The translations under genes and the position numbers were made by a program. Source: Rhodococcus sp. W8901 (GTDB lineage: Bacteria; Actinomycetota; Actinomycetes; Mycobacteriales; Mycobacteriaceae). Taken from it: a stretch of DNA of 64,000 nucleotides. The notes under the pieces are model-generated. The model was not told the DNA's origin. It did not search any database and was given only the letters and a program-made list of their open reading frames with translations. Of this stretch, positions 41,892 through 44,721 are shown piece by piece. Numbering within the stretch: the stretch's first letter is position 1; every line of letters starts with the position of its first letter. The stretch is from NCBI RefSeq assembly GCF_013348805.1, contig NZ_CP054690.1, positions 5,270,001-5,334,000 on the forward strand, in the 5' to 3' direction.

Positions 41892-42292
41892 TAGACAAAC
41901 CTAACAGCCGGTATTCAAATATTCGGCGACATGCCGATCGGGCACCTAGGGGTCCCAGGCGAGCAAGGGCGTGATAGTTCGAGCCAGGGCGTGCTCGCCT
42001 TCCAGAGATTCGGCAGATGACGTCCACGACGGCACGGTAGGCAGGCTCAACGTGCGCGAGCTTCAGCAAGGACGTCATCGACAGCCGTCGATGCACTGGT
42101 CAGGCGCCCGACAGTTGCACTTCCCGCGCTCGGGCACCCCCCCGGCATCACCGATAGCTCTGTTGAAGGGCGGTCCAGTGATCGAACACTCCCCCGGCGG
42201 AGCACCCCCGTGTACATTCGGATGCTAACAACATTCGGATGATTACAGCATTTGAAATGGGATGAATCAGAGGGAGGGGAGGAATCGGAGCG
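41892..42292. other. 401-bp gene-free region before the TetR-ClpX pair
   Basis: No convincing gene is visible. The region is A/T-richer near its right end, where the two 17-bp direct repeats at 42214-42247 lie about 45 bases upstream of the TetR start. GGGAGGGGAGG just before ATG 42293 acts as ribosome site. Confidence 0.65.
42214..42247. repeat. Two adjacent 17-bp direct repeats upstream of the TetR-ClpX genes
   Basis: ACATTCGGATGCTAACA (42214-42230) is followed at once by ACATTCGGATGATTACA (42231-42247), identical at 15 of 17 positions. Placement suggests a regulator-binding site overlapping the promoter. Confidence 0.7.
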
Positions 42293-43381
42293 ATGGCGCG
42301 GCTGACGAGGGTCCAGCAGCAAGAGCTCAACCGGCGCAGGGTGCTCGCGGCAGCCCGAGCCGAATTCTCCGAGCGCGGCTTCCGCAAAGCGACCGTGGAC
42401 GACATCGCCATCCGCTCGGACCTCACCCGGGGCGCGGTGTATTCCAACTTTCCCGGCAAGCGTGCCCTGTATCTAGCGGTCCTCGCGGAGGAGGCGGAGA
42501 ACGCCGGCGAAGTCCTGAACACTTATGCAGATGACCCGGAGGGCGCGCTGGCGGTGTTCGCGAGCACTTGGGTGGATCGACTGCCCCGGACCAACAACTA
42601 CGAGTATCAGGGATCAGTTCAGCTCACCTCTCCGATGCTCGGCGTGGACCTCATCCCCGAAATCCTCACTGACGAACGGTTTCAGCGGCCGTTCGCCCAG
42701 TTGGTGAAGCTCGATGCCATACTTCTCGGCTTGGCCCTCGAGGGACTCTCCCGGGCCGCCGAGCGCATGGTCGGCGTCGCCGAATCCGTGCTCACCGTTC
42801 TGTACGGTGCAAGCGAATTATCCTTCGTTGCACCCGATTTCGTGGATCACTCCAAGGTGATCGCAACCTGTCGACACATCACTGGAATCGTCATCGACGA
42901 TCCGTGGATTCTTCCGGCAACTGACGTCGCTGTGAATTCCGTCGACGAGGAGTGGACCGTCCCCAGGGCAACCGATGTTGTTCGCGGCAAGCCGACGGCG
43001 ATCGACGACGGAATCGTTGCCGTAGTCGGGATGAACCGGCTCGAGTGCATCGAGCACCTGGTCCGTACGGCACCCCGTGAATCGCCAGTCACCGCTGTTC
43101 TCGTAACCGCTGACATCGCCGAGCTAGCGCCACTGGCACGATTGGCACTCGCCGATATGTGCCGGTCGCTGCGCCAAGCCTTCCCCTCCGCCGCGTGGCC
43201 GCGCGTGCAGGTGATGGTCGACCCCAACGGTGAGATCGCCGCGGCCTGCGGGTTGTCGAACGTCGATGACGACACCGAGGCTGCCGTCTCCATCTCCGAT
43301 GGACGCATCACCTCGCGCAGCATCGGCCCCGGTGCCTGCGCACGCGCCGACGCCCTCACCGCACGAACTCGAGACCACTGA
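42293..43381 (+). CDS. TetR-family regulator with an extra C-terminal domain
   Basis: This 362-residue protein is much longer than a normal TetR regulator (about 200). Residues 1-60 are the DNA-binding domain (VLAAARAEFSERGFRKATVDD, RSDLTRGAVYSNFPGKRALY) and about 65-195 the helical ligand domain. The last 150 residues form a separate alpha/beta-looking part with repeated strand-helix units (GIVAVVGMNRLECIEHLV, SPVTAVLVTADIAELAPL, RVQVMVDPNGEIAAACGL). The last segment recalls a thioredoxin/redoxin-like fold (VDPNGEIAAACGL), which is inference from pattern only. It ends 44 bases before the clpX-like gene and is probably co-transcribed with it. Confidence 0.88.
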   Translation: MARLTRVQQQELNRRRVLAAARAEFSERGFRKATVDDIAIRSDLTRGAVYSNFPGKRALYLAVLAEEAENAGEVLNTYADDPEGALAVFASTWVDRLPRTNNYEYQGSVQLTSPMLGVDLIPEILTDERFQRPFAQLVKLDAILLGLALEGLSRAAERMVGVAESVLTVLYGASELSFVAPDFVDHSKVIATCRHITGIVIDDPWILPATDVAVNSVDEEWTVPRATDVVRGKPTAIDDGIVAVVGMNRLECIEHLVRTAPRESPVTAVLVTADIAELAPLARLALADMCRSLRQAFPSAAWPRVQVMVDPNGEIAAACGLSNVDDDTEAAVSISDGRITSRSIGPGACARADALTARTRDH

Positions 43382-43425
43382 CGCGCACATTTCATCCACC
43401 CATCAGCGTTGACGAGGAGTGAGAC

Positions 43426-44721
43426 ATGGCACAGATCAGCGACAGCGGTGGCCTGTTGAAATGCTCGTTTTGCGGCAAGGGCCAGAAGCACGTGCGGAAG
43501 CTGATTGCCGGCCCCGGCGTCTACGTCTGCGACGAGTGCATCGACCTGTGCAACGAGATCCTGGAAGAAGAGTTGGCCGAACCCGGAATTCTCGAACGCG
43601 AAGGCATGCCCACCCCGGCCGAAATCTGCGCTCACCTCGACCAATACGTCATCGGTCAGCACGCTGCCAAGCGGTCGCTCGCTGTCGCCGTCTACAACCA
43701 CTACAAGCGAATCCGCGCCGCGCGCGACAGCAGCGAGGCCTCCGACGGTGACACTGTCGAACTCACGAAATCGAACGTCCTGATGCTCGGGCCGACAGGC
43801 TGTGGAAAAACCTATCTCGCACAAACTCTCGCCCGCATGCTCAAAGTCCCCTTCACGATCGCCGATGCCACGGCCCTCACCGAAGCCGGCTACGTCGGCG
43901 AGGACGTCGAGAACATCCTCCTCAACCTGATCCAGGCCGCGGACTTCGACGTTCATCGAGCCCAGACCGGGATCATCTACATCGACGAAATCGACAAGGT
44001 CGCCCGCAAGAGCGAGAACCCGTCGATCACCCGCGACGTCTCGGGCGAAGGCGTCCAACAAGCTCTCCTGAAAATCCTCGAAGGAACCCAAGCAAGCGTT
44101 CCCCCACAAGGCGGCCGCAAACACCCGCACCAAGACTTCATACAGATCGACACCACCAACATTCTCTTCGTCGTCTCCGGAGCCTTCGCAGGGCTCGAGA
44201 AGATCGTTGCCAACCGAGTCGGTCACCACGGCATCGGGTTCGGCACCGAGATCCGATCCAGAGACACCGACACCCCAGACGACCTCGACGACGTGATGCC
44301 CGATGACCTTCACAAGTTCGGCCTCATCCCCGAGTTCATCGGCCGCCTTCCGATTGTGACGGCAGTGCGCCCCCTCGACAAAGATGCGCTCGTCAAGATC
44401 CTCACCGAGCCGAAGAACGCGCTCGTCAAGCAATACGCACGCCTCTTCGAAATCGACGGCGTCACACTCACCTTCACGGCCGATGCTCTCGATGCGATCG
44501 CCTCCCAAGCGATCATCCGAGGAACCGGAGCCCGGGGCCTGCGAGCCATCATGGAAGAAGTGCTCCAGCACTTCATGTACGACATCCCCAGCCGCGACGA
44601 CATCGCAGACGTGGTCATCGACGAAGACATCGTCCGCGCCAACACCAACCCATCCATCGCCGAACAGCGCCGCGACCGAAGCAACGTAACGCACGACACC
44701 ACCGGCCGCGAAGCAGGCTGA
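43426..44721 (+). CDS. clpX: ClpX-type AAA+ unfoldase, second paralogue
   Basis: This 431-residue unfoldase should select proteins and feed them to ClpP. All functional elements are present: zinc finger Cys13, Cys16, Cys35, Cys38; Walker A GPTGCGKT at 122-129; pore loop GYVG at 155-158; Walker B IIYIDE at 183-188; RKH loop at 231-233; sensor-2 [13 protein letters not shown]. The sequence departs from the housekeeping ClpX of related genera in the linker after the zinc domain, and no clpP, tig or valS gene is nearby, so it is probably an accessory copy. It follows a TetR-type gene by 44 bases. GAGGAG precedes ATG 43426 by 6 bases. The codons use more A/T at third positions than the neighbours. 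Confidence 0.92.

Follow-up and report, generated by a model that had tools for sequence, protein, structure and literature searches.

What is a complete clpX gene doing beside a TetR-family regulator and away from clpP? The question is raised by a locus in Rhodococcus sp. W8901, of which we analyzed a window of 64,000 nucleotides (contig NZ_CP054690.1, positions 5,270,001 to 5,334,000; coordinates below count from the first letter of this window). Here a gene for a 362-residue TetR-family protein (42293..43381, + strand) is followed after 44 bases, on the same strand, by a gene for a 431-residue ClpX (43426..44721, + strand), and the open reading frames reproduced the coordinates and spacing given in a preliminary description of the locus. 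We found that this clpX is a second copy, and that the same kind of TetR protein adjoins clpX in many genera of Actinomycetes. On balance, and with slightly better than even confidence, we lean toward reading the second ClpX as an inducible specificity variant that works with the common ClpP, rather than as a new machine.

A second ClpX, its regulator and a candidate operator

The genome is a single contig of 5.71 Mb, and its other clpX lies at 3.7266-3.7278 Mb, where the only two clpP genes of the genome adjoin it on the same strand. Because a clpP-linked clpX stands elsewhere, the window gene encodes a second ClpX, and the case raised in the preliminary description, in which the genome would hold a single clpX, is rejected; the absence of clpP from the window locus that it reported is confirmed, both clpP genes being at 3.73 Mb. 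The two ClpX proteins are 75% identical. The second far exceeds the cut-offs of both NCBIfam ClpX models (NF003745, 647.4 bits vs. 359; TIGR00382, 616.1 vs. 370.75), and it retains the four cysteines of the C4 zinc-binding N-domain (residues 12-48; 43459..43569, + strand), Walker A and B, the GYVG and RKH loops and an intact IGF loop for ClpP docking (44233..44241, + strand), as expected of the 'fully equipped' ClpX first described. In zinc domain, AAA+ motor, pore, and RKH and IGF loops it resembles the housekeeping ClpX of the clpP-clpX locus; it differs in that its gene is not linked to clpP and has a regulator and a candidate operator of its own next to it. The GC (guanine plus cytosine) content of clpX is 61.3% and that of tetR 64.1%, versus 67.3% for the window. 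The housekeeping ClpX of this genome and that of Tsukamurella tyrosinosolvens share 91.7% identity. Matches of the second ClpX in PHROGs were uninformative.

In the TetR protein, an ordinary TetR core (residues 4-203), whose TetR_N DNA-binding domain (residues 18-63; 42344..42481, + strand) scores 49.5 bits in Pfam (cut-off 24), is predicted to be followed by a redoxin-fold domain (residues 206-362; 42908..43378, + strand). The fold of this domain matches thioredoxin/redoxin proteins, which backs the earlier impression of about 150 extra, redoxin-like residues; no match to a Pfam redoxin model was reported for 55 family members at an E-value of 0.1 for the whole protein or 1 for the domain alone. 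A separate domain starting after residue 205 also led us to reject the whole C-terminus as an ordinary TetR ligand domain, in line with the preliminary description. A weak sequence match in the PDB to the RssB/Hnr receiver (E-value 0.33) was judged to be chance. The added redoxin-fold domain, for which no Pfam family was reported, distinguishes the regulator from one-component repressors of the TetR family such as NalC, KstR, QacR and EthR2.

Redox control, which the preliminary description had suggested, found no support. At residue 252, the start of the first helix and the active-site cysteine position of redoxins (placed by fold order, not by residue-level alignment), alanine occupies 51 of 55 aligned rows and histidine the nearest relative, G008; cysteine is present in the window protein only, and a redox switch acting through a conserved active-site cysteine is therefore unsupported. 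Arginine is found at residue 249 in all 55 rows. Cysteine occupies residue 292 in 33 of them (serine in the window), so a cysteine of this domain may have a non-canonical role.

The redoxin fold invites comparison with YjbH of Bacillus subtilis, a thioredoxin-domain protein that serves as the ClpXP adaptor for Spx (PMC7253607). In both cases a thioredoxin-type fold occurs in a protein tied to ClpXP and to a transcription regulator. However, YjbH is a separate adaptor, many of whose homologues have a CXXC motif (PMC7253607), whereas the redoxin fold described here is part of the repressor polypeptide and lacks a conserved active-site cysteine. By this analogy the TetR protein might itself be the main client, its redoxin-fold domain docking the paired ClpX and proteolysis of the repressor providing feedback. 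We regard this as highly improbable: the domain is also present in family members that have no ClpX neighbor, and YjbH does not bind ClpX itself (PMC7253607).

Upstream of tetR lie two 17-bp direct repeats (42214..42230 and 42231..42247, no strand assigned) that are 88% identical, each with one copy of CATTCGGATG (box 1, 42215-42224; box 2, 42232-42241). The candidate operator thus consists of 10-bp boxes of the form CATYYRRATG placed 17 bp apart. At least one box of the form CAT[CTA][TC][GA][GAT]ATG was found upstream of 58 of 103 TetR-family loci (the sample is defined below), compared with a mean of 0.72 loci and a maximum of 3 in 50 first-order shuffles; the pattern was set after enriched words had been viewed, and related loci were not down-weighted. 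Two or more boxes occurred in 12 loci, giving 14 pairs, of which 12 were exactly 17 bp apart, a spacing that was not part of the pattern; none of the 50 shuffles placed two boxes in one locus. The direct repeats noted in the preliminary description are thus real and beyond chance. In a genome-wide search allowing up to 3 mismatches, the two-box pattern appeared solely at the window locus, where a third, degenerate box follows 17 bp past box 2 (42249..42258, no strand assigned; its pair with box 2 has 2 mismatches to the pattern). In divergent named loci without a P450 match (see below), 16 of 22 carry a CATN4ATG box in the space between tetR and clpX; in four Streptomyces loci among these 16 (L269, L273, L276, L286) a box pair is spaced by 30 bp, not 17. 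The repeats look like a conserved operator for tetR and its neighbor, and because the pattern is unique in the genome and boxes lie between tetR and clpX, the regulator appears to be local, acting on its own gene and the adjacent one.

Recurrence of the pairing and clpX copy number

We searched samples of genomes from the order and the class with the C-terminal 279 residues of the TetR protein, obtaining matches in 56 of 397 order genomes and 43 of 394 class genomes, each sample including the window's own genome. The resulting 103 loci are the window, three loci from a plasmid collection and 99 loci from sampled genomes (98 plus G008), these 99 being taken with as much as about 7 kb of flanking sequence; three partial matches in G590 and G730 were left out. 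A second set consists of named genomes, the 80 best of 468 relatives. Neighbor lists are approximate, since genes in the fetched loci were called by a simple codon-position script, and names of neighbors, including cytochrome P450 (P450), rest on sequence clusters and reading of translations, not on Pfam.

A ClpX was encoded within 7 kb in 21 of the 103 loci (counting the window, L128, which is cut by a contig end, and L133, which is broken) and within 6 kb in 39 of the 80 best named relatives. The pairing recurs across Actinomycetes, in many genera and in three layouts: tetR divergent from clpX, tetR divergent from a P450 gene followed by clpX, and tetR followed by clpX, the arrangement of the window and G008. 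A P450 cluster was present in 42 of the 103 loci, mostly divergent from tetR, and a P450 in 43 of the 80 named ones. In 15 of the 39 named loci with ClpX, clpX directly follows the P450 (a remnant in two), and the ClpX start is no more than 75 bp from the P450 alignment. In those two (L247, L265) just the last part of the P450 was detected between tetR and clpX, which suggests decay of the P450 with clpX kept. No ClpX was seen near other TetR genes in 28 control loci, for which only 1.5-kb flanks were used. In an early scan of contigs with a single TetR protein, 24 stretches fit a pattern and none of them coded for a relative.

The search for genomes that combine the pair with a separate clpX, proposed in the preliminary description, was positive: 49 of 50 tested genomes with the pair hold another clpX. 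These are 20 of 20 sampled genomes (both copies partial in G760) and 29 of the 30 examined among the 39 named genomes (the other clpX being partial in G784 and G791 and fragmented in G792). The sole exception, G765, is a metagenome bin; its only two matches are both parts of the TetR-linked copy, which we call the accessory gene. Of about 77 TetR-positive genomes without ClpX within 7 kb of the tetR, 62 were examined; among these, four have a second full-length copy, 56 a single copy, one a single broken gene and one no match. In one of the four (G268) the second clpX is about 9.5 kb from a tetR, and all four distant copies bear the zinc-domain marker described below. In contrast, none of 75 TetR-negative genomes with a match had two full-length clpX genes (80 controls were examined, of 90 drawn at random from 652 genomes); three TetR-negative genomes had two matches each, at least one of them partial. 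In the window's genus, the TetR protein occurs in 2 of 14 genomes, and the same two carry two clpX (in G003 a clpX is split into two pieces).

A marked zinc domain and a converted motor

Most accessory ClpX proteins are distinguished from the housekeeping protein by their zinc domain, in which the stretch from GP to ICDEC is longer by one residue. This insertion is present in 17 of 19 intact accessory copies and 39 of 39 named ones and in no housekeeping ClpX (0/19 and 0/25). The two copies without the marker are those of the window and G008. Genus g118 reveals a further difference between domains. Over residues of about 111-400, all four intact accessory genes (G754, G652, G613, G721) are 98-100% identical in DNA to the housekeeping clpX of their own genome, while housekeeping genes of different species are 84-97% identical over the same stretch. 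Over residues 1-50, however, the accessory proteins are 69-71% identical to the housekeeping ones and 86-96% among themselves, the housekeeping copies being 100% identical to one another. This pattern is gene conversion confined to the motor, which has left the zinc domain different.

Similar tracts were seen in part elsewhere. In family f34, three of six genomes have bins of 98-100% (L144, L156, L158) and all six drop to 74-84% at residues 231-290; the accessory gene of L119 has one bin at 99%; and 3 of 25 named genomes have at least one bin of 98% or more, L237 only in the most conserved bin. In G760, G784 and G791, six ClpX matches break off at residue 98-99, and for four of these a contig end is no more than 8 bases away, as would be expected if near-identical accessory and housekeeping motors had collapsed in assembly. 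In the loci L128, L277, L280 and L308, matches end near residues 98-107, at or near contig ends, which would fit such a collapse. The accessory clpX of L133 (G525, 8137-10760) is split, its zinc-domain and motor parts being about 1.25 kb apart.

In a tree of whole proteins, the accessory label requires 5 changes over 38 rows, and a single clade of all whole accessory ClpX was rejected by the approximately unbiased (AU) test. We attribute the scatter of accessory copies to conversion of the motor, and the AU rejection to this together with a separate origin of the window copy. In a tree of residues 1-75, the label requires 2 changes over 73 rows, but that tree is poorly resolved, with good support for 4 of its 62 inner branches and with long branches coming together. 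Catalytic and pore motifs are kept in almost all accessory copies, the row of L238 lacking the Walker A and GYVG columns or being frame-broken.

Some natural products, such as armeniaspirol, act on ClpXP. The locus might accordingly be a resistance module: TetR would respond to a toxic compound, which the P450, in loci that have one, would break down, and the second ClpX would serve as a tolerant substitute for the drug target. The P450 cluster in the flanks of 42 loci and the 15 named P450-ClpX arrangements, two with a remnant P450, are consistent with this, as are the surroundings of the G008 pair, where translations indicate a polyprenyl-synthase fragment, a P450, a UbiA-like prenyltransferase and an isopentenyl-diphosphate isomerase, in what looks like a decayed terpenoid cluster. 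Yet a drug-tolerant target should hold a diverged motor, and in genus g118 it is the motor that matches the housekeeping gene and the zinc domain that differs; moreover, a search of the window with one P450 query gave no match. We consider a resistance module quite unlikely.

A proposed inducible ClpX and its rivals

In the mechanism we favor, an inducible ClpX variant, the TetR-type repressor would sit on the tandem boxes, spaced by 17 bp, upstream of its own gene and repress one transcript carrying tetR and clpX. Such a transcript is suggested by the position of the operator, the 44-bp gap and the box between the genes in divergent relatives. Repression would be lifted by a ligand bound to the TetR core or by a signal that the redoxin-fold domain detects, and the second ClpX would then join ClpP1P2, adding a different substrate set or competing with the existing one. 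In the wider family, it is the zinc-binding N-domain, where adaptors dock, that carries the mark of the difference, and in some genera housekeeping clpX has overwritten the AAA+ motor; in the window's genus, a ClpX derived from the lineage's own clpX has come under a TetR of this kind. Binding and repression by TetR, relief by a ligand, the joint transcript, action with ClpP1P2 and altered substrate choice are all steps that we infer. The proposal made in the preliminary description, a dedicated unfoldase under ligand or redox control, thus finds support as to the second ClpX, its tie to TetR in many genera, the operator and the redoxin-fold domain, finds none as to redox control, and is conjectural as to a dedicated unfoldase and a new kind of proteolysis control.

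ClpXP specificity is usually thought to be altered by adaptors. If a conserved, inducible ClpX variant that brings a docking domain of its own were confirmed, it would be a transcriptional route to re-aim the protease. The conversion pattern is a natural experiment in this respect, suggesting that the zinc domain differs for a reason and that the motor may be identical, and it makes a direct domain-swap test possible. Adaptor docking and recognition of some substrates have been placed on the ClpX zinc domain (PMC10782952, PMC5515868), and according to a 2017 review, mycobacteria were then still without an identified ClpX adaptor (PMC5515868). A more elaborate version, in which N-domain-switched and housekeeping ClpX form mixed hexamers under TetR-redoxin control, selection keeps the zinc domain apart, conversion keeps the motors interchangeable, a signal re-aims ClpP1P2 and the window's genus has rebuilt the architecture from native clpX, is speculative and on the whole unlikely.

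Several observations weigh against an inducible ClpX variant. No recognizable promoter was found near the operator, a promoter and terminator scan having given nothing usable. No clpX was found in the fetched flanks of 82 of the 103 TetR-family loci, so the TetR-redoxin family is not specific to ClpX, and in G124, G343 and G687 a marker-type second clpX lies far from tetR or on another contig. Over residues 8-48, zinc domains of housekeeping copies have a mean identity of 97.6% to one another, whereas the mean is 69.6% within the accessory set and 70.6% between the two groups; what accessory zinc domains have in common is one inserted residue and not one conserved surface, and with such diversity, relaxed constraint or lineage-specific roles are possible. 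Finally, the IGF loop begins with I, L, M or V in 28 of 54 accessory copies and with A, S, T or F in the other 26 (AGF 21, SGF 3, TGF 1, FGF 1), and the replacement may mean that ClpP docking is weak or absent in part of the family. The nearest relative of the window ClpX, that of G008, has TGF, and the window has IGF.

The window copy itself departs from the wider family. The inserted residue is absent from it, its zinc domain agrees at 85% with the housekeeping one and at 64% with those of other accessory copies (residues 8-48), and forcing it and the G008 copy together with seven unconverted accessory copies was rejected (p 0.017). It clusters with the housekeeping ClpX of its own genus (support 97/89), and bins over residues 1-400 are 58-92% identical in protein to its own housekeeping copy, with no conversion tract. 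From these results, the slot beside tetR in the window holds a derivative of native clpX, which may have arisen by a separate duplication or by full overwriting and then long divergence. Any difference from housekeeping ClpX should then lie in its diverged linker, N-domain and motor residues.

Its grouping with the genus's housekeeping ClpX, and the wide variation of accessory zinc domains, would also suit a plain extra copy that raises ClpX dose or drifts under relaxed constraint, with TetR an incidental neighbor. This we hold to be very unlikely, given that the same TetR family adjoins clpX in many genera and layouts, that no TetR-negative genome with a match had two full-length copies, that nearly all catalytic and pore motifs are retained, and that the zinc domain stays distinct despite conversion of the motor. 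The weakened IGF loops raise another alternative, an unfoldase or chaperone independent of ClpP that might mature the co-encoded P450 or another client. The short P450-to-ClpX gaps would fit such a role, and in mitochondria, ClpX is reported to unfold an enzyme in part and so to activate it (PMC7077987). However, IGF is kept in the window and a residue of the I/L/M/V type in just over half of the accessory copies, and 24 of the 39 named ClpX-bearing loci have no P450 match, which makes ClpP independence rather improbable as well.

Among the top results of the open-access literature we found no work on a TetR-linked ClpX. The closest described case that we found of several ClpX proteins with different roles appears to be Myxococcus xanthus, where loss of ClpX2 impairs fruiting-body development and ClpX3 is linked to heat stress (PMC11423568). 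As in the window, the genes of these additional ClpX proteins are isolated, but ClpX3 has no N-domain, unlike the window ClpX, and in contrast to the accessory family, neither a TetR partner nor gene conversion is mentioned in the available parts of that paper.

Further observations concern the surroundings. In a 34-row branch of the TetR tree (for example L142, L136 and L185), tetR is often followed by genes for a small predicted regulator and a phosphoenolpyruvate/pyruvate-binding-like protein, and ClpX is present in no row. The G008 pair (L138) is flanked by nuo genes on one side and by a rimP/nusA-like pair on the other. Scans of the window against Rfam, at gathering scores, and for tRNA genes gave no matches. 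Downstream of the second clpX, a decayed fragment of a clpX 3' end (45666..45800, + strand) is 44% identical over 45 residues to residues 339-383 of the second ClpX, versus 40% over 42 residues to the housekeeping copy, and is perhaps the trace of an earlier duplication.

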